Source: Planctomycetales bacterium 10988 (GTDB lineage Bacteria > Planctomycetota > Planctomycetia > Pirellulales > Pb10988). From it: 64,000 bases of DNA. Below, one piece after another: positions 5,468-58,972 of this stretch (its first letter is position 1; each line of letters starts with the position of its first letter). The stretch covers positions 1,302,001 to 1,366,000 of the forward strand of contig CP043547.1 in the NCBI GenBank assembly GCA_009664345.1, given 5' to 3'. The translations under genes were made by a program, and so were the position numbers. The notes under the pieces are model-generated. The model did not search any database and was not told where the DNA came from. It saw only the letters and a program-made list of their open reading frames with translations.

Positions 5468-5542
5468 GCCCCTGTAGCTCAGTCCGGTTAGAGCAGCTGA
5501 CTCTTAATCAGCGGGTCCAAGGTTCGAATCCTTGCGGGGGCA
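5468..5542 (+). tRNA. tRNA-Lys (anticodon CTT)
   Basis: 75 bases. The acceptor stem GCCCCTG pairs with CGGGGGC (one T-G pair) and A is the discriminator base. D-arm GCTC...GAGC. Anticodon stem GCTGA/TCAGC with loop CTCTTAA gives CTT, reading AAG (Lys). The T-arm holds GGTTCGAATCC. The 3' CCA is not encoded. The gene is the probable attachment target of the adjacent integrase, whose opposite-strand frame runs through the 3' part of this tRNA. Confidence 0.95.
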
Positions 5543-6915
5543 CTTTCGCACTTCTTCGCATTGTCTGGCACTTTATCGCCTAAAGCACCACTCTTATTCG
5601 ACCTAGATGATCGAGTTTTTCTGCTGCGGGTTCTTTCTTTCTCGCTTCCCTTCGCACTGGATTGACTGGAATCGTGTTCCGTTTGCTGTCGTTTTTGCTG
5701 TGGGTCGGTAGAGTTCGAACTCAGCGTTGGAGCGGTTCCACCTAAAAATTCGTTCATTTTTTGGATGGCATCGGCTTCCTGACCTGGGAATAAATGGCCA
5801 TAAGTATCAATTGTCAGAGTGATCGTACAATGCCTCATCACTTTTTGGATAACATTAATCGGAATTCCTGCCTTTGCTAACCAAGCTCCGCAGGTGTGTC
5901 GCAAAGAATGGAAATCGAGACGTCTGCCCTGAGAATTGGTCTCAGCCAGAAAGTCCTCTAATTCTCTTTCTCTGAGTTCCTCTTCTTTAATTCCATTTTC
6001 TGATAACCACCTCGATCGAGCCGCCTTAATATCATCCCTAAGCATCCGTGCGACGTTGGATTCATGAGGCATCTGAAAAACGGGGTCTCTGGCTGACAAC
6101 TCTGCCAGAAAATTCTTCAGTTGTTCCGCTAGAGAACTTTCGATATATTGCTTTGCGTCTTTCTTATTCTTTGTTGATTCCGCCCGACAAAAGATATAGT
6201 GATCGAAGTTCTCAGTGATTAGATCGGCCTTCCTTAAACTACGTAACTCGTTGGAACGAAGGCCGGTTTGAATGGCTGTATGATAAAGTAGGCATCTCTC
6301 GAAGCCTTCCATTCCGTATCGAATCGGCTCATTCTCCGTCACAGAGAGTAAAATTTTCCACTCATCAGGCAGTAAGATTCTTCTTTCATACCTGCGATCT
6401 GTTTTAGGATTAGGCTTACGGACAGAGGCAAGCGGATCACGATCCAGCTTCTGATTCTCAACTAACCATCTCGTAAAAGATTTGATCGCAGTCAGATGAG
6501 CTTGTCTTGTTCTGGTTGCAAGTCCTTCTTTACTAAGATTGTCTGAATATTGGTTAACAATATCTGCTGAGATCTCTGCAACCTTGTGAATACCAGCAAA
6601 CTCGGAAATCTGAAGAATCGCTCTGATTGTGCTTCGAATATGCTTTTTAGTTCGGTTTTCTGCTCGTAGCTTGCTTTCGAAATTTGCTAGATGAGTTCTG
6701 ATACTAAGACCAGCCTCTTGCCTCATTGAAGTGATTTTTGGATCTAACAACCCTACTTTCATTAGAGCGTCCTCAGTCTCCAGCTTTTTTGCAATTCTCT
6801 CAGCGGCTGCTTTGTCGGTGGTTCTACTGCTTCTCGTTTGCCTCCTTCCTTGGAAATCAGTCCATTCAATTAGCCAAGAACCTTTTCCGCCTCGTTTAAA
6901 AACACTTGCCATCAT
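5488..6915 (-). CDS. int: Tyrosine recombinase / phage-type integrase
   Basis: 475 residues. ATG 6915 is preceded by AGGAG. An N-terminal arm-binding/SAM-like region spans about residues 70-160, and the catalytic domain about 190-400. Catalytic residues seen are Arg in TGLRSNEL, the HSLRHT box, His in MRHCTITL and the nucleophile in DTYGHLF. The family integrates elements into tRNA genes. After the catalytic domain comes a Ser/Lys/Arg-rich linker and a tail, SAPARIRTLDPLIKSQLL, that is the antisense reading of the tRNA-Lys 3' half; the stop codon lies in the tRNA D-loop. The attachment site is therefore inside the coding sequence and excision would change the C-terminus. All catalytic residues are present, so it may be active. 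Confidence 0.93.
   Translation of the reverse strand: MMASVFKRGGKGSWLIEWTDFQGRRQTRSSRTTDKAAAERIAKKLETEDALMKVGLLDPKITSMRQEAGLSIRTHLANFESKLRAENRTKKHIRSTIRAILQISEFAGIHKVAEISADIVNQYSDNLSKEGLATRTRQAHLTAIKSFTRWLVENQKLDRDPLASVRKPNPKTDRRYERRILLPDEWKILLSVTENEPIRYGMEGFERCLLYHTAIQTGLRSNELRSLRKADLITENFDHYIFCRAESTKNKKDAKQYIESSLAEQLKNFLAELSARDPVFQMPHESNVARMLRDDIKAARSRWLSENGIKEEELRERELEDFLAETNSQGRRLDFHSLRHTCGAWLAKAGIPINVIQKVMRHCTITLTIDTYGHLFPGQEADAIQKMNEFLGGTAPTLSSNSTDPQQKRQQTEHDSSQSSAKGSEKERTRSRKTRSSRSNKSGALGDKVPDNAKKCESAPARIRTLDPLIKSQLL
5491..5542. other. Probable attachment core (attL) in tRNA-Lys 3' half
   Basis: The integrase gene abuts and overlaps the 3' half of the tRNA gene, the classic attB position for tyrosine recombinases. 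The other end should carry a direct repeat of this stretch. I did not find one down to 10.5 kb, so the core length and the far end are unknown. Confidence 0.45.
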
Positions 6916-8055: not shown

Positions 8056-8894
8056 ATGCCACGCCATCAACTGACCGACGATCAGTGGGAATGTATCCAC
8101 GATCTGTTCCCCCAACCCCAACGGACCGGGCGGCCGCCGAAGAATCGACGCCAGGTGATCAACGCCATTTTGTGGGTCTTGCGGACCGGGTCTCCTTGGC
8201 GAGACCTCCCCGCGGAGTACGGCCCGTGGCAGACGATTTATCACCGCTTCAATGCCTGGAATGCCGACGGGACGCTCGACCAGATTCTTGATCGGTTGCG
8301 AGCGGCCTACCTCGATACCGGGGCGATCGAGGGCGAACTGTGGTGCATCGACGGGACCTCCGTCCGAGCCCATCGCTGTGCGGCAGGCGGCGGCAAAAAA
8401 GCGACCCGCACGAGCCAAGCGACCACGCCTTAGGCCGTTCTCGCGGAGGTTTTTCCACGAAAATCCACCTCCTGTGCGACGGGCAGGGACATCCGCTGGC
8501 CTTCCATCTCACTGCCGGACAAGCCCATGAGAGCACCGCGCTGGAGCCGTTGCTCGAACGTGCCGAGGAGGAGTTGATCGACTCGTGCGGCCAACCGCTG
8601 GCCTGGCCGATGCGGCTAGCGGGCGATAAAGCCTACCGAGCAGATTGGATCGACGAGCTCCTGGAGTCGCTGGAAATCACTCCGGTAATCCCCTCCAAGT
8701 CGAGCGAACGAAACCGGCGAGCGGCCGAGTTCGATCAAGACCAATACCGCCGCCGCAACCTCATCGAGCGCGTCATCGGCTGGCTGAAAGAATGCCGCCG
8801 CGTCTTCGCACGCTTCGAGAAAACCGCCCTTAACTATGCCGGCATGCTCAAACTGGCGATCATTCAACGCTACTTGAAATTAATCATCGCCTAA
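8056..8894 (+). CDS. IS5/IS427-type DDE transposase, two frames joined by a -1 shift
   Basis: ORF A (8056-8433) starts at ATG after AGGGAGG and has the DUF4096-like N-terminus LTDDQWECIHDLFP and the first catalytic Asp in CIDGTSVRAH. ORF B (open from 8340 to the stop at 8894) carries LGRSRGGFSTKIH, the second Asp in LAGDKAYRAD and the Glu in NLIERVIGWLKE. The two join at a run of six A followed by G (8395-8401): reading GGC-AAA-AAA and then slipping back one base gives GGGKKSDPHEP, the usual family sequence. A -1 programmed or transcriptional slip is known in this IS group; a one-base deletion is the alternative. Confidence 0.9.
8395..8401 (+). promoter_or_regulatory. Putative slip site (A6G) of the transposase
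   Basis: AAAAAAG at the point where frame A must pass to frame B (-1). The zero frame reads AAA AAA GCG, so it is not a perfect X-XXY-YYZ heptamer; transcriptional slippage adding one A would also restore the frame. Confidence 0.6.
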
Positions 8895-9463: not shown

Positions 9464-10378
9464 TAGGCGTGGTCAAGAATGCGTTGGAACCCAAATGTGA
9501 AGCCCGCTTTGAAATGTCCAGTTACGGTTATCGGCCTGGACAGGGGGCAGGATGCCATCGCCCGAGCCTACCAGCTTGCCCAAGGAAGCACTTTCCGCAA
9601 GTGGGCACTACGAGACTTCCGAGGACACCCCTCAGGGCGGAGTGATTTCACCTTTGTTGGCCAACATCGCCGTTCGCGGCATGGAGCAAGCTCTGGGGGT
9701 CGCTTACGGCTTCAAGGGACACTTGTTGAAAGCTCGCTCGCCGGCATGGGTGCGATACGCAGATGACTTTGTTCTGTTCTGTCACTCGCAAGAAGAGGCT
9801 CGAACAAGCTTGAGTCGAATCTCGCAGTGGCCGACCAGACGCAATCTCCATCTCGCGCCGGAGAAAACCCATCTGGTTCCTCTCCGGGAAGGCTTTGACT
9901 TTCTGAGGTTTACCGTGAGTCGCTACCAAGTCCCCACCAGCCGCCGAGGCTGGAAACGGCAAATCCAACCCAGCCGAGACTCTCTGAAACGGATTGGGGA
10001 TCGGCTGAGAACCATCTGGAGCGGTCTCAGGCCGCACCGACCGTGGCTCTGGCTGCCGCCCTGAAACCAGTGATCCGTGGTTGGGCGAATTCCTTCCACA
10101 CCCAGGGTTCCAGCAAAGCTTTTGCCAAGCTGGAAAAGTGGATGGACGACCGGGAAATGCGGTACGCCAAACGGCGTCGCCGGGCAAAACCCGCTTCTGA
10201 CTGGTTGAGAAGGATTGGGGAATTCCGGTTCCAGGTCGTCGAGACCGCTGGGTGTTCGGGGAGAAGTCCAGCGTCACCACCGACAACACCAAACGGAAGG
10301 TGACGATGACACCCCGGAAACCCTGGAACGGGGGTCATCTGTACTGCCAGCAGTTTCATCTGAGCTCAGGTGAGTCCT
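9454..10378 (+). pseudogene. Degraded group II intron reverse transcriptase/maturase
   Basis: Recognisable pieces lie in changing frames: NALEPKCEARFE and SYGYRPGQ (about 9480-9545), DAIARAYQLAQ, then TPQGGVISPLLANIA and YADDFVLFC (about 9620-9785), LAPEKTHLVPL and GFDFLRF, then in another frame KPVIRGWANSF, LEKWMDDREMRYAKRR and finally RWVFGEKSS. These follow the order of RT motifs 3-7 and the maturase X domain. At least three frameshifts occur, and the segment with the first catalytic Asp before TPQGG is deleted. The 5' part of the RT is missing too. The encoded protein cannot be functional. Confidence 0.88.
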
Positions 10379-10465: not shown

Positions 10466-13400
10466 TTACCCAACCCCCAACCCACTAAAGAGCTTGTCGA
10501 TTTCTTCGGCGGATTGATAGAATTCATCGGCATCGTCTTGCCAAGACTTTTTCTTCGCCAAGTTATCGAGTGTGATGTCTTCGGGGGTTTTAGGGTTCGA
10601 AGTAATGACCAGACTGGTGAAAGGTGCGGAGGCTGGAGCGGGGTCTTCGATCGGAATGTAGATGATGCCACCGGCGAGGAAAAGACCATCGATATTGGTT
10701 GGAGAACCAGAGAAGAAGTTGGAGAGGTCCTCAAGATCAACGCCACTGAAAGCTCGGGTGTGGGGGCCACCGGAGGAGCCGGGAACCGTGATAATGTCCG
10801 CGAAGCCGTCTTGGTTGAGGTCAGCACTTCCGACGCGAACGCCGCCTACAAAGTTGGGATGATAGGCGTAAAAGTTTTGGAGCGTTGAACCATCGGCGGA
10901 GCTAAAGGCTTGCACATGCGGGCCACCTCCGGCACCGGGGGAAGTGATGATGTCGTCGAAGCCATCACCATTCACATCGCCGGAAGCGACGTAAAGCCCG
11001 GTTAAAACATTCGGAGCGTAAGCGTAAAAGTTTGTTACCGGACCAGGCATTTGCTCGCCGGTCATGCCGTTGATCACGCGGACGTGTGGGCCTCCACCAG
11101 GACCAGGAGTCGTGATGATTTCAGCGAAGCCATCGCCGTTAATATCTCCCGTGGCAATACGAACGCCAACGGTGACATTGGGTGCATAAGCATAAAACTC
11201 GGTAATCACGTCACCAGTCAGTCCGTTGTAGACTTTTAAATGCGGACCTCCCCCAGCATCGGGAGCGGTAATAATATCGTCGAATCCGTCGCCATTCACA
11301 TCGCCCGCCGCCACGAAAACACCCGTTGTCACATTCGGAGCATAAGCATAAAAGTTATTGAGACCGCCCGTGTTTAGCTGACCGGTCCGGCTATCGAAGA
11401 CTTGCACATGTGGGCCACCGCCCGGTCCCGCAGCCGTGATGATATCGAGAATTCCATCACCGTTGACATCGCCGGTCGCGACGCGAACTCCGCCGGTGAA
11501 GCTTTCTCCATAAGGCATAAAACTCAATATTTCATTGCCGGAAGTGTCAAACACTCGTACCGTCGCGGGGCTTCCGGCATCGGTTCCGGTGACAATTAAC
11601 GGCGTTTCATCAACGGCGTTATAGAGAATGGTCGCTGAATCGCTGACATTTTCATTGCCCGCTTCATCCTCCGCGACGGCATCGGCGACGCTCACCGTCA
11701 CTACGCCATCTTCCTTGGCCGGCACCACTTCCAGTGTAAAAATATTACCATCAACGGGCGTAAACGTTCCTGCTATTCCTCCCGTTACAACAATGTCGCC
11801 GACTTTAAAGCCGAACACTTCTTCAGAAGATTCAAAGGTGAAAAGAATCGGGCTGACTACCGTCTGCCCACCATCCGGCGAGATCGTCAAGCTCGGAGCG
11901 GTGCCGTCGTAAGTGATTATTGAAGTATTCTCTACATTTCCATTGCCGACGGTGTCAGTAGCACCATTTGCCAATACCGTAACGACAACATCACCATCGG
12001 CCAACGCAGTGATTTCGAGAGTGTAAGTATTGCCATCAACTGCTGTAAAGCTTCCCTTCGTGCCATTGATGACTTGAATATCATCAATCGTAAAATCTGA
12101 CACTTCTTCAGAAAAATCAATAGTAAAAATGGTCATCGCTACGTTTGTCAGATTTTCATCTGGAGTGATAACAACCGTCGGGGAAATACTGTCATAAACA
12201 ACGGTAGCGCTATCACCAACAAGCAAATTCCCAGCGGCATCTTCGGCCGCCTCATCGGCCACACTAACGGTGAGTTCACCATCTGAGTTTGGAGTCACTT
12301 CAATGGTATAAGTATTCCCATCGATCATGGTGAAGCTACTTCCCATCCCGCCGGTGATTACAATGTCTGATTCAATAAACCCAATGATGTTTTCAGAAAA
12401 TTCAAAGATAAAAAGGATCGGGCTGGTGTTTGTCAAAAATGGGTCTGGTGTAAGTGATAGAGTAGGTGGTGAAATATCATAAGTAATCGTAGAGGAAGAA
12501 GATTCATTGCCATTCATAAAAGGGTCATGAGAAACATTGGAATCTACTATTATTTGAATGTTCCCTTCACCGTTAGCTTGAACATCAAGTGCGTAGGTAT
12601 TGTCATCAAGAACGGTGAAGTTGCTACCTATTCCATTAAAGATTTGTATGTCGGATTCCTCGAACCCAATTACCCTTTCTGAAAAGTCAAAGCTAAATGT
12701 GACTAATTGCACATTCGTATTTGTTTGATTGGGAGAAATGTTTAGTCTAGGTGAAACTTCATCTTCTATTACCCACAATTCCATGCCGCTTATTTGGTCG
12801 TTTGCTCTAAAAAAAAGCTTTCCATTCACGTTTGTTAGATTTTCAGGAAAAGAACTAAAAATGTCGGGGTTTAGATCCACTACTAATTCAGTACCGGCAT
12901 AAGTACCATCACTAACCCACAATTCTGAACCCAAATCTGTACGCGCATCAAAATAAAGTAGTCCATTGACGTTTGTTAAACCGTTAGGACTGGAATTATT
13001 CTCTCCTATATCGATATCTTTTACTAATTGTGTTCCATTACTTGTGCCGTCGCTTTTCCACAATTCTATATCTGACGAACGATTTCTTGCTCGAAAGAAT
13101 ACAGAGCCATTGAATTCGGTTAATTCCGTAGGATTTGAACCTGCTGTACCAGGAAAAATATCACTAACGAGTACCGTACCTTTGCTAGTTCCATCGGTCA
13201 TCCAGATCTCAGAACCAGCGAATGTATCATTTGCCTGAAAAAAGAGAGTCTCGTTGATCAAGATAAATTCACTCGGAGAGGAGGTGCCACTGCCGATCCG
13301 TATATCTTTCAATAATTGTGTGCCTTCACCGGTACCATCGCTTGTCCAGATTTCCTCGCCGTGAACTCCGTCGTTCGCAAGGAAGAGAAATGTTCCATTC

Positions 13401-15646
13401 ATATTGAAAAAAAGATGAGGGTCTGAACTAACCTCTCCTATATTAATATCTCTAACAAGTCGAGTGCCTTCACTTGTCCCATCAGTCATCCATAGTTCAT
13501 AACCAGTCGAACCGACATGTGCTGAAAAATATAATGTTCCATTAATGGACTTCAATTCACTTGGATTCGAACCTGCCTCTCCCAGATTGATGTCTTTTAT
13601 TAAAATTGTCCCTTCGCTTGATCCGTCACTTCTCCAGAGCTCTCTTCCTGAGGTTCCGTCGTCGGCGACAAAAAACAATGTATTGTTAAAGTCGTATAAT
13701 TCAGTTGGTAATGAAGATTCCGTTCCAGGAACTAGATCTGAAACAAGTTTTGTGCCTTCGCTTGTCCCATCAGTCATCCATAGCTCTGCCCCAGTGATTT
13801 CGTTAATAGCCCTAAAGAATAAAGTATTATTCACCACTGTTAGATAACGGGGATAGGAATTCAAATCTCCGGTTCTGATGTCTTTGACAAGCTTTGTTCC
13901 AGAGACCGTCCCGTCGGTCATCCAAAGCTCTACACCAGTTCCGGCTTCTCGACCGCTAAAAAATAGAGTGTTGTTGAAGTTGTGGTAGGTATGGGGATGG
14001 CGGAATTCACCGGGATTCACCTGTGCGACGAACTGGGTACCTGCTGTGGTCCCATCACTCGACCATAGCCCTCGACTATACCCATTTGATGCGAAAAAGA
14101 TTAGGTTGTCGTTAAAGCCTTGAAACCAAGGCTGTTTCCAGTAATCAAGTCTGAATTCATCAGGAACTGAACCCATAGTTTCAGGCCGAACATCCTTTAC
14201 GAGAATTGTTCCTTCGAGAGTTCCATCGCTCCGCCAAATCTCAGTGCCGCTTGAACCGTCATTCGCAGTAAAGAAGAGTGTGCCATTCAAATTTACCAGC
14301 ATTTCAGGTAAAGAAGTCGTTGGCCCAGGAAAGAGATCTTTTACAAGTTGAGAACCTGCGCTGGATCCGGTATTCATCCAAAGCTCGTAGCCTCTACTTC
14401 CATCGTTTGCAACAAAGAAGAGTGAGCCATTTACATTTGTCAAATACCTCACGCCGGTCTTATAAGAATGATGACCGGGTACCCCTGGTACGATATCATC
14501 TACCCGCTTGGTTCCGTTACTGGTGCCATCGCTCATCCATAAATCATAGCCGGATTGGTCCTCAAAAGCTCTAAAATAAAGCGTTCCGTTCACATTAGTA
14601 AGGTGAGTCTGAGCGGTTCCCTCATTTCCTTCCCGAATCTCCTTGACAATATGGGTTCCCGAGCTGGTGCTGTCGCTGCGCCAAAGCTCTCTTCCACTAA
14701 TCTCGGTAACCGCGCTAAAAAATAAAGTACCATTGATATTGGTAAGGTATGCTGGAGACTCTGGAGCTACTTCATTAATATCTTTGACAGCTAGAGTACC
14801 TTCCGAGGTGCCATCACTCATCCAGAGCGTTGGGCCGAAGTTCTCGGCATAAGCGGCAAAATAGATAGTGCCGTTAACGTTGGTTATCTCTTCAGGCCCT
14901 TTCGTTGGAAGCCCACCTGGTACAAGAGCTTTTAAGAGATATGTGCCTTGACTAGTTCCATCACTTCGCCAGATCTCCTTGCCATTTAGGTCATCATCTG
15001 CACTAAAATAGAGAATACCATCGATGTTGGCAAAATTTTGTAAAGAGGGTGAGTCAGAGCCAGGCAGGATATCTCTTACTACAAATGTCCCCTCACTTGT
15101 TCCATCAGACCTCCACAGTTCCGAGCCATAAGACTGATGATAAGCCCTAAAAAACAAGGTTCCATTGACATTAATTAAGTTGTCAGGTAGGTAAACTGAG
15201 GATTCATCGTAAAGGTCCTTGACAAGTCTGGTGCCCTCGCAGGTACCATCGCTCACCCAAAGGTCCTTTTCGCTTCCTAGGCTATTCGCGCTAAAAAATA
15301 CTTTCCCATTCACCTCCGTAAGAAAACGCGGCTCTGATCCCCTCGCACCTCTATAAATATTCTTTACGATTTGGGTACCTTCAATGGTTCCATCACTCTT
15401 CCACAATTCTTGCCCTGTAGCAGGATCGCTATTCGCACTAAAAAATAATGTGCCGTTCACATCTGTTAGATATTTGGGGTTGGAAGATATACCTACCTGA
15501 TTAATATCAATCAAAAAAGGTTCCGCGGCCGAGAGAAGATGGCGATCTTCGAGGGTTTCAAGCTGAAGTGCGGTTTCTTTTTGTTGGCGGAGGCGGGTGC
15601 GATGGTGGCGTTCGGAATGCTGGGAGAAAGGTTTGAACCAGGTCAT
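10466..15646 (-). CDS. Giant secreted repeat protein (LEPR-XLL, ELWxSDGT, Ig-like, FG-GAP)
   Basis: 1726 residues in four parts. (1) A basic N-terminus ending LETLEDRHLLSA, residues 29-40, is the LEPR-XLL-type export/anchor motif of planctomycete surface proteins. (2) Residues about 45-965 hold 18 complete ELWxSDGTxxGT units of about 50 residues and a partial nineteenth, likely beta-propeller blades. (3) Residues about 965-1335 hold four Ig-like units with FSE and DI motifs (Big_12-like). (4) Residues about 1350-1670 hold five to six FG-GAP/VCBS units with DVNGDGF calcium loops and GGGPH motifs. The likely role is cell-surface adhesion or envelope structure. The stop codon lies 16 bases from the group II intron remnant; the acidic C-terminus still looks natural. 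Confidence 0.93.
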   Translation of the reverse strand: MTWFKPFSQHSERHHRTRLRQQKETALQLETLEDRHLLSAAEPFLIDINQVGISSNPKYLTDVNGTLFFSANSDPATGQELWKSDGTIEGTQIVKNIYRGARGSEPRFLTEVNGKVFFSANSLGSEKDLWVSDGTCEGTRLVKDLYDESSVYLPDNLINVNGTLFFRAYHQSYGSELWRSDGTSEGTFVVRDILPGSDSPSLQNFANIDGILYFSADDDLNGKEIWRSDGTSQGTYLLKALVPGGLPTKGPEEITNVNGTIYFAAYAENFGPTLWMSDGTSEGTLAVKDINEVAPESPAYLTNINGTLFFSAVTEISGRELWRSDSTSSGTHIVKEIREGNEGTAQTHLTNVNGTLYFRAFEDQSGYDLWMSDGTSNGTKRVDDIVPGVPGHHSYKTGVRYLTNVNGSLFFVANDGSRGYELWMNTGSSAGSQLVKDLFPGPTTSLPEMLVNLNGTLFFTANDGSSGTEIWRSDGTLEGTILVKDVRPETMGSVPDEFRLDYWKQPWFQGFNDNLIFFASNGYSRGLWSSDGTTAGTQFVAQVNPGEFRHPHTYHNFNNTLFFSGREAGTGVELWMTDGTVSGTKLVKDIRTGDLNSYPRYLTVVNNTLFFRAINEITGAELWMTDGTSEGTKLVSDLVPGTESSLPTELYDFNNTLFFVADDGTSGRELWRSDGSSEGTILIKDINLGEAGSNPSELKSINGTLYFSAHVGSTGYELWMTDGTSEGTRLVRDINIGEVSSDPHLFFNMNGTFLFLANDGVHGEEIWTSDGTGEGTQLLKDIRIGSGTSSPSEFILINETLFFQANDTFAGSEIWMTDGTSKGTVLVSDIFPGTAGSNPTELTEFNGSVFFRARNRSSDIELWKSDGTSNGTQLVKDIDIGENNSSPNGLTNVNGLLYFDARTDLGSELWVSDGTYAGTELVVDLNPDIFSSFPENLTNVNGKLFFRANDQISGMELWVIEDEVSPRLNISPNQTNTNVQLVTFSFDFSERVIGFEESDIQIFNGIGSNFTVLDDNTYALDVQANGEGNIQIIVDSNVSHDPFMNGNESSSSTITYDISPPTLSLTPDPFLTNTSPILFIFEFSENIIGFIESDIVITGGMGSSFTMIDGNTYTIEVTPNSDGELTVSVADEAAEDAAGNLLVGDSATVVYDSISPTVVITPDENLTNVAMTIFTIDFSEEVSDFTIDDIQVINGTKGSFTAVDGNTYTLEITALADGDVVVTVLANGATDTVGNGNVENTSIITYDGTAPSLTISPDGGQTVVSPILFTFESSEEVFGFKVGDIVVTGGIAGTFTPVDGNIFTLEVVPAKEDGVVTVSVADAVAEDEAGNENVSDSATILYNAVDETPLIVTGTDAGSPATVRVFDTSGNEILSFMPYGESFTGGVRVATGDVNGDGILDIITAAGPGGGPHVQVFDSRTGQLNTGGLNNFYAYAPNVTTGVFVAAGDVNGDGFDDIITAPDAGGGPHLKVYNGLTGDVITEFYAYAPNVTVGVRIATGDINGDGFAEIITTPGPGGGPHVRVINGMTGEQMPGPVTNFYAYAPNVLTGLYVASGDVNGDGFDDIITSPGAGGGPHVQAFSSADGSTLQNFYAYHPNFVGGVRVGSADLNQDGFADIITVPGSSGGPHTRAFSGVDLEDLSNFFSGSPTNIDGLFLAGGIIYIPIEDPAPASAPFTSLVITSNPKTPEDITLDNLAKKKSWQDDADEFYQSAEEIDKLFSGLGVG
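10650..11600 (-). repeat. Five to six FG-GAP/VCBS repeats
   Basis: Units of about 62 residues with GDVNGDGFDDIIT and GAGGGPH. The DxNxDG loops are calcium-binding in integrin-type propellers. Confidence 0.88.
11640..12756 (-). repeat. Four Ig-like (Big_12-type) repeats
   Basis: Units of about 93 residues, each with a Pro-rich start (such as PTVVITPD), an FSE motif, a DI-V-NG motif, a DGNTY motif and a TYD end. Confidence 0.8.
12757..15520 (-). repeat. Array of 18-19 ELWxSDGT repeats (about 150 bp each)
   Basis: Tandem coding repeats with cores such as ELWRSDGTSEGT and a following NGTLFF strand. Units have diverged (DLW, EIW, SDST, MNTGS), so this is an old array. Unit 8 (LWMNTGSSAGS) is the most deviant complete copy. 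Confidence 0.9.
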
Positions 15647-40735: not shown

Positions 40736-43129
40736 ATGATCTTATCTCATGCGACTCGTACTCGTATCCTATTTGCTGCTCTAGGTTTAAGCAGCATGAT
40801 AGGAATTGGAACGGTTTGGGCTCAGCAGATCGAGGCTGAATCAAAATCTAAGGAAGTCGCTTCTCGGAAGGTAGAAGAGAAACGGACGAAATCTCCTTCA
40901 CCATTCCGGCAGGTGGCTCATCCGCATCCTTCAAGAGTAGGGCGTTCCATCGCTGATGGGGCACAGATTCCACGAATGGCAGACTCTCGAAGTCGGAATT
41001 TTCCTACGCGCTCTACCAATCCATTCGAAATGCCTGAGCTGCAAGCTCCCATTTCTGCTGGCGATCCCTGGCAGAAATCCGCGGCGGATCTCTTTGGTCC
41101 CAAGCTGAAGAAGGCGGGAGAACCCAGCTCTCGTGAATCCGAAATCGTCGAAAAGGACGAACGTTCCGAAGGACCGCAGTCGGAGCCAAAAACTCCGGAG
41201 ATGTTGACGGAACCAGAAGAAGAGAAGCCTATCGAGACGGAAACGCCTCAGCCTTTGGCAGAAAAAACAGAGACAGCATCCCCTGAATCCAAAGAACAGG
41301 AAAAAGGACCGGAAGCAGACGACGCACAGCCTCTGGTGGAAATGAAACCAGAGGGAAAAACTCCATCAGAGAGTGAAGAGCCGTCCATTCTCGAACCGGA
41401 TGAAAACGAAGAGATGGTGGTTCAGGACGAACCGATCCCAGCAATCGATCCTTCGCAAATGCCGAATTCCTCTCGACGGGCAGGCCCTCGCGGCTCGATG
41501 GTCGATGCTCAGCCAGGGGAAGAGACGCTCCCGGAATTATTGATTCCCGAGGAGAACTTGATTGTGACCCCGGCACCTTCGGCCAACACGCCTGAAGTAG
41601 AAGGTCAGGACACTCCCACGACGGAGATTAAAGAACCTGCTCGCTCGATGGCGGAAGCGGAAGAATCGGATGTCCCCGGCCTTTTGCCAGCTCCGGAATT
41701 TGAAAGTATTCCAGAAGCGGAAAAGATGGAACAGCCTGAACCGAACGTGGCAAAGAGCAAAGAGGAAACTTCGCCGCCGATCTTGGGTGATGTGAATGCC
41801 GAACCGCTTCAAGTCGAAGGCGAGGGGAAAGCTCACGTCGAATCCGAACCCAAGCAGAACATGATCGAGGAATTTCCCATCGAAGAAATGCCGATTGAGG
41901 AGATGCCCGTCGAAGAGCTACCTATTGAGGAAATGCCGATTGAGCAACTTCCCATCGAAGAAATGCCGCTGGAAGAATACCATCCGGAGCCGGAGGAACA
42001 TTCTCCTCATGTTCAACCGCTGGACTTGCCGCCGTATGTCGTGGATTTACAAGGTCGTATCGACCAGACCATCCACCACTACGCCGCCAACTGGGAGTTA
42101 AATTCCCGCGATCATTCCTATTGGGATATTATGCACCATATCGTCTTCGCTGGTGTGGATTCCAATATTCGCAGAAGTCATGCCCGCGGCCGTCCGGTAA
42201 ATTCGATCGGTTGGCTCTGTTGGAATGGACGTTGCAAAGGGCCTCCGAAGTTTATCTCCCGCGATCGTTATGGTCTTCGGGTGCAAAAAGGCCCTTGGGT
42301 GCAAGGACACTATGGACAGTTTTTGGCAATGCTGGCTCAATCGGGAGTCTATCCCAGCTATGAAGTCCGCGTCGATGGGAACAAATACACCGTGGCAGAC
42401 ATCATCGATAGCGAGCAAAAGTTCTGTCGCCGAGGAATTGAACTGACTTTCATTCTGCTAAGTATGTCTTATTATCTGCCGGATACCGATCAGGTTTGGA
42501 AGAACTACCGTGGCGAAAATTGGAACATCGAGCGATTGATCAGCGAGGAAATCTCCTCCCCGATTCTGCGGGATGCCGCTTGCGGCGGAACGCACCGGTT
42601 GATGGGTTTGAGTTATGCGATTCGTGCCCGAGTTCGCGAAGGGAAACCGCTGACGGGTGAGTTCAAACGAGCAGATATTTATATCCGCGACTACCAGGAT
42701 TATACCTTAGCCTTGCAAAACACCGACGGTTCGTTCAGCACGGAATGGTTCCGTCGCAAGGAAGCCCGTCGCGATCTGGATCGCCGCTTGCAAACGACCG
42801 GTCATATTCTGGAATGGATGGCATTCTCTGTAGATCGCGACCGATTGCTTGATCCGCAAATGATCAAGGCCGCGGCTTACTTGAACAACCTCCTCTGGAC
42901 TCAACGTGATCGCGAATGGGAGATCGGCCCCTTGGGTCATGCTCTGAAAGCCTTGAAAATTTACAACGCTCGCCTCCGAACCGAGCTAATGCCACCAGGG
43001 ACGCCTTCGGTGGTTGAACCGGCGGAACAACCACGATCCCAGCCTAGCGGCCGTGTTGCTTCTCGTCCTCATCAACCCGCTCAACATGGCATCTGGAGTG
43101 TAAGTGATTGGCACCCAGTGACCGACTAG
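40736..43129 (+). CDS. Large secreted protein: acidic Pro/Glu-rich region and helical C-terminal domain
   Basis: 797 residues. Signal peptide at residues 1-29 (ends GTVWAQ). Residues 30-425 are a low-complexity Glu/Pro/Ser-rich stalk with a tandem array of IEEMP units (separate feature). Residues 435-760 are a globular helical domain with recurring QGHYGQFLAMLAQSG, LMGLSYAIRARV and TGHILEWMAFS, which recalls the alpha/alpha-barrel of terpene-cyclase or squalene-hopene-cyclase-like folds; the catalytic DxDD motif is not seen. Similar domains occur in planctomycete proteins of unknown function. Export to the envelope is likely. Confidence 0.7.
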   Translation: MILSHATRTRILFAALGLSSMIGIGTVWAQQIEAESKSKEVASRKVEEKRTKSPSPFRQVAHPHPSRVGRSIADGAQIPRMADSRSRNFPTRSTNPFEMPELQAPISAGDPWQKSAADLFGPKLKKAGEPSSRESEIVEKDERSEGPQSEPKTPEMLTEPEEEKPIETETPQPLAEKTETASPESKEQEKGPEADDAQPLVEMKPEGKTPSESEEPSILEPDENEEMVVQDEPIPAIDPSQMPNSSRRAGPRGSMVDAQPGEETLPELLIPEENLIVTPAPSANTPEVEGQDTPTTEIKEPARSMAEAEESDVPGLLPAPEFESIPEAEKMEQPEPNVAKSKEETSPPILGDVNAEPLQVEGEGKAHVESEPKQNMIEEFPIEEMPIEEMPVEELPIEEMPIEQLPIEEMPLEEYHPEPEEHSPHVQPLDLPPYVVDLQGRIDQTIHHYAANWELNSRDHSYWDIMHHIVFAGVDSNIRRSHARGRPVNSIGWLCWNGRCKGPPKFISRDRYGLRVQKGPWVQGHYGQFLAMLAQSGVYPSYEVRVDGNKYTVADIIDSEQKFCRRGIELTFILLSMSYYLPDTDQVWKNYRGENWNIERLISEEISSPILRDAACGGTHRLMGLSYAIRARVREGKPLTGEFKRADIYIRDYQDYTLALQNTDGSFSTEWFRRKEARRDLDRRLQTTGHILEWMAFSVDRDRLLDPQMIKAAAYLNNLLWTQRDREWEIGPLGHALKALKIYNARLRTELMPPGTPSVVEPAEQPRSQPSGRVASRPHQPAQHGIWSVSDWHPVTD
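41864..41983 (+). repeat. Tandem 15-bp repeat, eight IEEMP-like units
   Basis: Units encode IEEFP, IEEMP, IEEMP, VEELP, IEEMP, IEQLP, IEEMP and LEEYH. The bases differ by synonymous changes between units, so the array is not recent. Confidence 0.9.
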
Positions 43130-43149: not shown

Positions 43150-43198
43150 AACAAACGTCCGCTGCTCTTCATCATTGATCGAGCAGCGGACGTTTGTT
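43150..43198. terminator. 18-bp perfect hairpin after the secreted protein gene
   Basis: AACAAACGTCCGCTGCTC pairs without a mismatch with GAGCAGCGGACGTTTGTT around a 13-base loop. No T-run follows beyond TTTGTT, so it may act as an mRNA 3' end stabiliser or a non-canonical terminator. Confidence 0.6.
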
Positions 43199-43431: not shown

Positions 43432-44385
43432 ATGAAGTACCAAAACACCACCGATAAATTTCAAACGATTCTTCAAAGTGCGGAACGGCTCGCCACGTCG
43501 GTCTCTGCGGATGCGATGATTGTGTTGGCTGAACGGCCCATCAATTGGGAACGCCTTGAAACCCAAGTCAGCGAACACCGCCTCATTGTTGGGGTCGAAT
43601 CCAAGGAAGAGTTTGCCAATGCCTCGGCGATGACCAACTCGGCCCCGGTCAAAATCGATGTCGTTCTGCTTAGCCTTCCCAACAAACCCGTCTTCGAACG
43701 GTTAACACAATTCCTCCTTGAATGCGTCGCCGAAGAAATTCTTCCCCCTGGCTCTCGGGTGATTGCCCTTTATAGCGGATTCGAAGCCGATACGATTGAT
43801 TCTTTCAGCATCATCAATCTTGGGGAACACCTCGAACGCCTCACCGCACGGGACCTCAAGAACCTCGAAACGAAGGTGCCACTTGAGTCGCTCAAGGTCG
43901 TGGTCGATCTGGCTACCGAAATCGGAAGCGAAGGTCGTGAAGGAAAGCCCGTCGGCACCCTGTTCGTCATCGGAGACCATCGCAAGGTTCTCCAACACAG
44001 TCGGCCCGCCGGATTTGATTGTGTCAAAGGTTACAATCGGAAAGAAAGAAATCTTTTCGATCGTCGGGTGCGGGAGCCAGTCAAAGAAATCGCTCAACTG
44101 GATGGGGCTTTTGTCGTTTCCGCGGCTGGCATTGTTGAAAGTTGTTGCCGTTACATCGATGCACCAACGACCGGAATTTCTTTAGCCAAGGGCCTGGGTT
44201 CACGCCACTGGGCGGCCGCTGCGATTAGCAAAGTAACCAAAGCGATTTCGGTCTCTGTGAGTGAAAGCAGTGGTTCGGTGCGAATCTTTCAAAATGGTGA
44301 GATGGTCCTTCGGATTGAACCTTTCCGCCGTCGCCCGATGAAATGGAAAGAGTTCGAGTACGAACCACCGGCAACTTCCGAATAG
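43432..44385 (+). CDS. DacZ-like diadenylate cyclase (DAC/DisA_N domain)
   Basis: 317 residues. It should join two ATP into c-di-AMP. The C-terminal DAC domain (about 190-300) has the catalytic LDGAFVVS and GLGSRHWAAAAIS motifs. The N-terminal 180 residues (AERLATSVSADAMIVLAE) recall the alpha/beta N-domain of archaeal DacZ rather than the helical DisA or membrane CdaA types. The end, SVRIFQNGEMVLRIEP, also matches DacZ style. In the usual RHR motif the last residue is Trp here. No membrane segment, so it is soluble. Family assignment is by motif; the DacZ comparison is from memory. Confidence 0.8.
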   Translation: MKYQNTTDKFQTILQSAERLATSVSADAMIVLAERPINWERLETQVSEHRLIVGVESKEEFANASAMTNSAPVKIDVVLLSLPNKPVFERLTQFLLECVAEEILPPGSRVIALYSGFEADTIDSFSIINLGEHLERLTARDLKNLETKVPLESLKVVVDLATEIGSEGREGKPVGTLFVIGDHRKVLQHSRPAGFDCVKGYNRKERNLFDRRVREPVKEIAQLDGAFVVSAAGIVESCCRYIDAPTTGISLAKGLGSRHWAAAAISKVTKAISVSVSESSGSVRIFQNGEMVLRIEPFRRRPMKWKEFEYEPPATSE

Positions 44386-44422: not shown

Positions 44423-45100
44423 CTATTCCGGCAATCGTTGGATCACGAGATTCACGCGGAAGCGATCAAGCGAATGGGCTTGCTGCACAACCGAGGATGG
44501 CTCAATTTTAAGAAATCCCACCACCTGACGTTCATATTTCTGCTGATAAAGATAGGCGGAAGGATTCGGGTCCGGCGTCGGCTCAAAGCCAAAATACGTT
44601 TGAACATAATGAGCAAGCGGAGCGGCGTTCCCGGTGGTGCCTTGGAAAGTGATCCGTTGACAAACGTGTTCTTCATCAAAGTAATACGTCAAGGACCCGG
44701 CCAAGTCCTGCTCTTGCGTTCCAGTCAGAAGAGGGACACGATACCCTGCCCAACGCCAATTCCCCGCCGCAGTCGAGACGCGCGGCCAAGTTGCCATCAC
44801 CCAAGGTTTTGTCCGATCGAAACGAAGGAGCGTTTCAATGGATAGGTCTTGCTGGGGGCGGCTAAGTCCACTTTGAGACATCCCTTGCGGAGGATTGCTG
44901 AGTGGATTTTGGTTCGAAAAGGAACTCGCCGTACCAGGGGGTAAAGAAAAAGCGGGCTGGCCCGAGGAAGCGAATGAATCCTGACTTACCGCCGCTTCTG
45001 GCGAAGAGGTTGATTGCAAACTACTAAAGTCCATCTGGTGGGCGGCATAGGGAACCCCTACGGAGGCCAATAAGCCAACCACCGTCCAACTCGGTTTCAT
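44423..45100 (-). CDS. Conserved secreted hypothetical protein (DUF6690-like?)
   Basis: 225 residues. The N-terminus WTVVGLLASVGVPYAAHQ is a signal or anchor. A Ser/Pro/Gln-rich linker (about 25-85) leads to a compact domain with RFDRTKPWVMATWPRVSTA, GYRVPLLTGTQEQDLAGSL and QRITFQGTTG. It resembles a planctomycete-only family I recall as DUF6690; not verified. Function unknown. The gene stands alone on the minus strand, convergent with the cyclase gene (37 bases between stops). Confidence 0.65.
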   Translation of the reverse strand: MKPSWTVVGLLASVGVPYAAHQMDFSSLQSTSSPEAAVSQDSFASSGQPAFSLPPGTASSFSNQNPLSNPPQGMSQSGLSRPQQDLSIETLLRFDRTKPWVMATWPRVSTAAGNWRWAGYRVPLLTGTQEQDLAGSLTYYFDEEHVCQRITFQGTTGNAAPLAHYVQTYFGFEPTPDPNPSAYLYQQKYERQVVGFLKIEPSSVVQQAHSLDRFRVNLVIQRLPE

Positions 45101-57988: not shown

Positions 57989-58972
57989 ATGCAAGCCTCG
58001 AATGATGCAACAAAGAATGGACAACCAATGGAAGCGAATTCGGGGTCGGGAGAGCCATCTGCCGGCGATATCGACTTGTTTAGTGGAGGATCAGGTTCGA
58101 TCGATATCATCTGGAATACCTTGACAGACACATGGGCCACCTTTTTGACCTATCTTCCCAATATGGTCGCGGCGTTGGCAGTCCTACTCGTAACGTGGGG
58201 TTTGTCGAACCTGGGAGATTATCTTCTTCGCCGATATCTTGTCAAAATCCGCATCCGCAGCAGCCTCAACCAACTCTTTCGCCAATTGATTTACACTGCA
58301 ATCTGGCTTACTGGAATTATTGTGGCGGCGATTGTCCTTTTCCCTGGCATGACCGTGGGGAAGATCATCACGGTTCTTGGGTTAAGTTCCGTCGCAATTG
58401 GTTTTGCCTTCAAGGATATTTTTGAGAACTTCTTTGCGGGAATCTTGATCTTGTGGCGATTTCCCTTTGATCCAGGCAATTACATTGAATGTGAGGATAT
58501 CCTTGGCAAGGTAGAAGAGATCACGATTCGTATGACCAAGATTCGCAAAGTCGATGGGGAACTTGTCGTCGTTCCGAATTCTTTGCTCTTTAAAAATCCT
58601 GTTTATGTGCTAGATAGCTGGGATACCCGACGCACAACGGTTATTTGTGGAATTGCCTATGGTGAAGATGTTGACGAGGGAAGAGAGGTCATTCACAAAG
58701 CCGTCGAGGCATGTGCAACGGTGAATAAAGAGAAAGATGTAGAGATCTTTGCCCAGGAGTTCGCCAGTTCCAGTATCAATTATGAAGTTACATGGTGGAC
58801 GAAACCGACCCCGTTGGAAGTACGGAAGTCCAAAGATGAGGTCGTAGCCGCAGTAAAACGTGCGCTCGACAATGCAGGAATCGAAATTCCCTTCCCCTAT
58901 CGCACTCTCACGTTCAAGGAACCGCTTCAAACCGCGATGCTAGAGCAAGGCTCTGGTGAGGAGAATTCTTAA
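57989..58972 (+). CDS. mscS: Small-conductance mechanosensitive channel (MscS family)
   Basis: 327 residues. A hydrophilic N-terminus of about 40 residues is followed by three membrane helices (MVAALAVLLVTWGL, AIWLTGIIVAAIVLF, and the pore helix GLSSVAIGFAFKDIFENFFAGILIL), then the beta domain (VPNSLLFKNPV) and the alpha/beta C-terminal domain. It releases solutes on hypo-osmotic shock. The pore helix has Gly/Ala packing and the conserved FKDIFEN turn. Standard length for the short MscS type. Confidence 0.94.
   Translation: MQASNDATKNGQPMEANSGSGEPSAGDIDLFSGGSGSIDIIWNTLTDTWATFLTYLPNMVAALAVLLVTWGLSNLGDYLLRRYLVKIRIRSSLNQLFRQLIYTAIWLTGIIVAAIVLFPGMTVGKIITVLGLSSVAIGFAFKDIFENFFAGILILWRFPFDPGNYIECEDILGKVEEITIRMTKIRKVDGELVVVPNSLLFKNPVYVLDSWDTRRTTVICGIAYGEDVDEGREVIHKAVEACATVNKEKDVEIFAQEFASSSINYEVTWWTKPTPLEVRKSKDEVVAAVKRALDNAGIEIPFPYRTLTFKEPLQTAMLEQGSGEENS

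Follow-up and report, generated by a model that had tools for sequence, protein, structure and literature searches.

Planctomycetales bacterium 10988 carries a gene whose product, judging from its sequence, is very probably an enzyme that makes cyclic di-AMP (c-di-AMP) and is of a type known best from archaea. The gene lies in a 64,000-nucleotide stretch of DNA (the window, meaning the whole stretch that was analyzed), and the explanation that accounts best for the data, in which we place high confidence, is that it encodes a soluble diadenylate cyclase of the DacZ/CdaZ class.

The gene, its product and the predicted fold

The open reading frame is real and conserved and no chance ORF, because both of its Pfam domains score above their cut-offs (27.4 bits for DacZ_P and 27 bits for DAC, PF02457) and its relatives share 46 to 64% identity in 70 aligned loci of the 80 that we named. 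These dacZ loci rank highest among at least 536, and the alignment of 71 rows consists of the window protein and the 70 just mentioned. The closest named relatives belong to Pirellulaceae, Thermoguttaceae and Lacipirellula and point to Pirellulales as the probable order, and the nearest rows in the trees are planctomycetes. No Pfam domain besides DacZ_P and DAC was found in the protein up to an E value of 10, and 27 residues remain C-terminal of the DAC domain. Searches of viral contigs with the protein and with the alignment, and of phage records with the protein, returned no relative.

Table 1. Positions of the dacZ gene, its parts, its neighbors and the second DacZ-like gene (window coordinates unless another contig is given).
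Feature	Position	Strand	Evidence or description
dacZ-type diadenylate cyclase gene	43432..44385	+	ATG 43432, TAG 44385; 317 aa
DacZ_P domain, N-terminal, residues 10-138	43459..43845	+	Pfam PF21755, 135 bits; pyruvate-kinase-C-like alpha/beta fold
DAC catalytic domain, residues 165-290	43924..44301	+	Pfam PF02457, 71 bits
DGA motif, residues 224-226	44101..44109	+	Alignment of 71 rows
RHW (RHR motif position), residues 258-260	44203..44211	+	Alignment of 71 rows
Upstream gene, without Pfam family	40736..43129	+	Neighbors dacZ also in relatives
Strong hairpin, perfect 18-bp stem, between the upstream gene and dacZ	43150..43198	+	RNA fold
DUF6690 gene, convergent, downstream	44423..45100	-	PF20397, 161.5 bits
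Second DacZ-like DAC (L002:1372-1998), 208 aa	Own genome, C1:1174526-1175149		Without N-domain; DGG, RHM

An earlier note, made from the DNA letters alone, had pointed to the motifs LDGAF and GLGSRHWAAA, to an alpha/beta N-terminal domain and to the absence of a membrane helix. All of these observations were borne out. The two motifs occupy residues 223 to 227 and 254 to 263, the N-terminal part matches DacZ_P and is globular alpha/beta in the model, and the highest hydropathy mean over 19 residues is 1.32, versus 2.66 in a planctomycete CdaA.

The AlphaFold2 model computed from the 71 rows has a mean pLDDT of 85.8 and a pTM of 0.61, and residues 300 to 311 form its only run of three or more residues with a pLDDT below 50. 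The 50 best PDB rows obtained with Foldseek are DAC proteins (CdaA, DisA, CdaM and relatives; best E value, 4e-7). Foldseek's own top 1000 were re-examined with VIA-align; among the 50 rows shown, model residues from about 145 to 298 superimpose on DAC domains with Z scores of 13.3 to 15.7, including 2fb5 (15.7, with an alignment that spans residues 89 to 297), DisA 9y9y (15.6) and CdaA 8c4n (15.0). Residues 6 to 136 superimpose on the pyruvate kinase C-terminal domain 5wrp_A (Z, 13.9; rmsd, 2.5; 123 residues; 11% identity). By sequence, the match of the family profile to pyruvate kinase C-termini is weak (best E value, 0.028), and a fused relative matched Pfam PK_C with 4.9e-5, which lies under that family's cut-off. 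The available text of PMC6741144 describes the N-domain of DacZ/CdaZ as having the same pyruvate-kinase-C type of fold and suggests that it is regulatory. The DacZ_P model matched none of the 14 control genomes, archaeal ones included; hence, the tie to the archaeal N-domain is one of fold and not of sequence. The N-domain of the window protein is probably a ligand-sensing domain.

Active-site residues and the second DacZ-like protein

Asp224, Gly225, Arg258, His259 and Gly281 are invariant in all 71 aligned rows, and the neighboring positions are nearly so, with Ala at position 226 in 68 rows and Trp at position 260 in 67. As the earlier note had remarked, the second Arg of the RHR motif is replaced by Trp (Trp260), so that the full triplet is not present in the window protein; the third position varies in the DacZ class. 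Of the 80 named relatives, 76 have Trp after RH, and the rest have Y, F, A or C. Both haloarchaeal DacZ proteins have His there; in 11 DacZ proteins from other classes of planctomycetes the position holds Q (4), K (2), A (2), Y, N or L, and in six DacZ proteins with an N-terminal extension it holds R (5) or A (1). From these alignments we read Trp260 as a trait of the lineage and not as the sign of a dead enzyme.

A DAC fold in which catalysis is lost or changed, owing to RHW, and which now serves as a receptor for c-di-AMP or another nucleotide would be in keeping with the loss of activity of a DisA-type enzyme upon replacement of RHR by AAA, given in the available text of PMC3328451, since the third residue here is Trp; the maker of c-di-AMP could then be the second DacZ-like protein in the genome. 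We consider this improbable, although it fares best among the alternatives, given that Arg258 and His259 are invariant, that DGA is kept, that Trp is the rule in close relatives, that the third residue is variable in DacZ proteins from other classes of planctomycetes and is His in the two haloarchaeal ones, and that 83 of the 92 DAC-bearing genomes sampled from the order have only one DAC match. The same text describes the Gly of DGA as nonessential in a DisA-type enzyme, and the available parts of the literature searched yielded no test of the second Arg of RHR as a single residue.

The second DacZ-like protein has DacZ as its best NCBIfam model (136 bits) and joins the DacZ proteins of the class from outside in the trees (support, 92/79 with 48 rows and 78/70 with 46 rows). 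A search of 30 genomes, its own included, gave some match in 28, the best being DacZ-type genes, and among the listed matches outside its own genome none exceeded 54% identity. In G217, the one genome with two matches, an in-frame TAG interrupts the weaker of them (41%). We rejected the rule that DGG denotes a dead enzyme, because relatives of the main enzyme carry DGG (L090), DGC (L076) or DGM (L082). The second gene could share or alter the role of the main enzyme.

Class assignment and occurrence in planctomycetes

The NCBIfam models for the five DAC classes gave 139 bits for DacZ, 31 for CdaA, 27 for CdaM, 22.5 for DisA and 21 for CdaS, none of which reaches its curated cut-off on the window protein. 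For the DacZ equivalog NF041371 the cut-off is 430 bits, which a DacZ from Haladaptatus passes with 442; DacZ of Haladaptatus halobius and the window protein share 38% identity over 152 positions. On these scores, the window protein is a member of the DacZ class and not the haloarchaeal equivalog itself.

In a tree of 46 DAC domains, 36 DacZ-type rows split from 10 rows of CdaA, CdaS and CdaM with a support of 100/100. The DacZ-type rows comprise the window protein, proteins of its order and class and of other planctomycete classes, EIIA-type fusions, the second copy of the same genome and two Haladaptatus proteins, which are the only archaeal rows; their genes are annotated dacZ, are both plasmid-borne and lack an adjoining mscS. 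One row labeled CdaM by us (L202) is annotated as a DisA nucleotide-binding domain protein, and L205, in which the motifs were not found, was left out of the tree, as was L203. Adding DisA and one Pontibacillus row (48 rows in all) gave 97/94 for the same split; DisA is represented there by a single row with a branch length of 4.12.

The earlier note had placed the protein closer to DacZ than to CdaA or DisA, and profile scores, domain build and tree all support this. It had also proposed a phylogeny, and a placement within DisA was not seen; the tree by itself does not exclude a grouping with DisA, as the AU test did not reject a group made up of DisA and 17 DacZ-type rows from the class to which the window belongs (P = 0.144). 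This value is what a divergent DisA or CdaA in place of DacZ could appeal to, and we regard such an identity as very unlikely in view of the DisA and CdaA scores, the pyruvate-kinase-C-like N-domain and the separate position of CdaA, CdaS and CdaM. Features of the two classes are missing as well: there is neither the linker nor the HhH DNA-binding domain that follows DAC in DisA (Pfam, up to an E value of 10), nor the transmembrane N-domain of CdaA, and the genome has no CdaA_N match. DisA is excluded by the profile scores and the domain build more than by the tree. CdaA, which occurs in Bacillus and others and in planctomycetes outside this class, shares the DAC catalytic domain with the window protein; it differs in its membrane N-domain and in the RHR of the rows read outside this order.

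The characterized counterparts are archaeal. DacZ of haloarchaea (Haloferax volcanii HVO_1660; NF041371) likewise has a C-terminal DAC domain, preceded by a soluble N-domain that is predicted to take the pyruvate-kinase-C fold, and DGA and RH motifs. It is about 270 aa long, whereas the window protein has 317, its N-domain is recognizable in the window protein by fold and not by sequence, and it has RHH (read in the two Haladaptatus proteins) instead of RHW. According to the available text of Braun et al. (2019, PMC6741144), H. volcanii DacZ forms c-di-AMP with manganese only, and DAC activity has been reported in another host for CdaZ/DacY of Methanocaldococcus jannaschii, which resembles the window protein, by description, in joining a PK_C-type N-domain to DAC. 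The same text assigns several proteins from bacteria to the DacZ/CdaZ branch, and the legend to its figure gives rows of Planctomycetales, Myxococcales and Gemmatimonadales that come from other main branches of a tree of H. volcanii DacZ relatives. Three Planctomycetales rows are named (Planctomicrobium piriforme, Isosphaera pallida and Rhodopirellula islandica); they share the phylum with the window and were drawn from the relatives of H. volcanii DacZ, and we infer that they sit in the DacZ/CdaZ branch. As far as this text goes, the window gene adds to a known kind of which bacterial members had already been reported.

Within the order, DacZ is the prevailing type. Among 97 sampled genomes, the window's included, DacZ_P is present in 93, DAC in 92, and 7TM-HD (PgpH-type) in 95; CdaA_N is present in 3, the same three that have high-scoring DACs. 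Across the phylum (199 sampled genomes) a DAC domain was found in 188 and DacZ_P in 36, of which 35 score over the cut-off. In this sample DacZ_P is present in each of the 12 genomes that belong to the window's class, its own included, compared with 24 of the 187 elsewhere, and the 30 top-scoring DAC loci of the phylum sample (L117 to L146) all lie outside the class and carry GTRHR. From the pattern of DacZ_P, CdaA_N and 7TM-HD across these genomes, it appears that DacZ took, and now fills, the place of the membrane-bound CdaA in this order, rather than the reverse. In this order, c-di-AMP is probably synthesized by a soluble enzyme of the DacZ type and degraded by an ordinary bacterial one.

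Three CdaA-type DACs of the order (L147:1144-2619, L148:757-2208 and L149:1066-2577) are 484 to 504 aa long, have RHS or RHA and come from three genomes of one family in which DacZ is also present; the one in L147 shows CdaA_N and DAC plus a YbbR-like match in Pfam.

Other planctomycete classes contain DacZ-type cyclases of 471 to 520 aa with an N-terminal extension (L016, L027, L028, L029, L031 and L032), five of the six with the full RHR. In the three examined (L016, L028 and L032) the extension is a PTS_EIIA_2 domain, a fusion that suggests a coupling of c-di-AMP synthesis to the phosphotransfer state.

Genomic context and a possible pathway

The hairpin upstream of dacZ was spotted by eye and then folded (-35.5 kcal/mol; z, -9.3; none of 200 shuffles as stable). 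It probably serves to end transcription of the upstream gene, so that dacZ is probably transcribed alone; a scan for promoters and terminators gave nothing above shuffles. Relatives of the upstream gene were found in 26 of the 80 dacZ loci, mostly as the next gene upstream, and relatives of the DUF6690 gene in 12 (tblastn, 1e-5); these counts are lower bounds, as many loci are truncated and only 54 of the 80 extend beyond 2 kb to either side of dacZ. When neighbors were clustered for 65 of the 80 loci and the window, leaving out 15 in which our ORF rule missed the gene, no c-di-AMP, potassium or MscS gene was recognized from the protein starts in clusters present in four or more loci. The window holds a gene for an MscS-type mechanosensitive channel (57989-58972), 13.6 kb downstream of dacZ. 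Haloarchaeal dacZ shares an operon with mscS2 in the available text of PMC6741144, whereas the MscS of the window matched none of the 80 dacZ loci (tblastn, 1e-5).

Farther upstream in the window, a 1,726-aa predicted protein (10466-15646) has, by eye, many ELWxSDGTxxGT repeats and C-terminal FG-GAP-like repeats. A tyrosine integrase (5488-6915), an IS5-like transposase fragment (8340-8894) and a reverse-transcriptase/maturase fragment (9552-10064), all read by eye, are possible remnants of mobile elements.

The description of the gene in the earlier note as of archaeal type in a bacterium stands as to type; it is no stray gene, given the frequency of DacZ_P in the order. With that frequency, an upstream neighbor common to 26 of 80 loci and planctomycetes as the nearest rows (the 80 top-ranking loci among at least 536), a recent transfer from archaea into this bacterium, for which the archaeal nature of the nearest characterized class might speak, is already contradicted as a recent event and is scarcely credible. 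Placing haloarchaeal DacZ outside the bacterial DacZ group was not rejected in the AU test with the two archaeal rows (P = 0.332), and the tree shows no direction for any older transfer.

The genome encodes one PgpH-like protein with 7TMR-HDED, 7TM and HD parts, and the 7TM-HD model matches 4 of the 14 control genomes, all of them bacteria. There are three DHHA1 matches, and the one examined is a DHH-DHHA1 protein that is closest to NrnA, under the cut-off of that model. TrkA_C domains are common c-di-AMP receptors. Nine TrkA_C matches lie in six ORFs of the genome, including two TrkA_N plus TrkA_C channels and one full-length TrkA; as TrkA_C also occurs in general potassium proteins and in 13 of the 14 control genomes, its presence is compatible with c-di-AMP signaling and says no more.

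By analogy with the DACs that have been studied, a pair of DAC domains would face each other, with one ATP bound in each through RH(W) and contacted by the Asp of DGA from the partner domain, and two ATP would be converted to c-di-AMP with a divalent metal. A small cytoplasmic ligand bound by the pyruvate-kinase-C-like N-domain may set the activity. DacZ would probably be the main source of c-di-AMP in the cell, with the PgpH-like membrane phosphodiesterase as its partner, and the TrkA_C (RCK) potassium proteins are possible targets.

We tentatively put forward a wider reading, which taken as a whole is possible but on balance doubtful: a soluble cyclase of archaeal type, whose pyruvate-kinase-C-like domain binds a metabolite, would have displaced CdaA while the bacterial PgpH stayed, c-di-AMP would report a cytoplasmic metabolite and not a signal from the envelope, and in this genome the copy with DGG and without the N-domain would act as partner or brake to the main enzyme. 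The earlier note called c-di-AMP little studied in planctomycetes, and this seems so, as no dedicated paper was found by title or start of abstract in a search that left most subscription papers outside. Titles, abstract starts and the available part of PMC6741144 contained no report that CdaA is absent throughout the order where DacZ and PgpH are present, and none of EIIA-DacZ fusions.

In summary, the order offers bacterial hosts for a class of enzymes that is known chiefly from archaea. With CdaA apparently swapped for DacZ and PgpH kept, it provides a comparative system for what the sensing domain of a cyclase reads. If the hybrid pathway is true, the relatives fused to PTS-EIIA perhaps report the phosphotransfer state via c-di-AMP.
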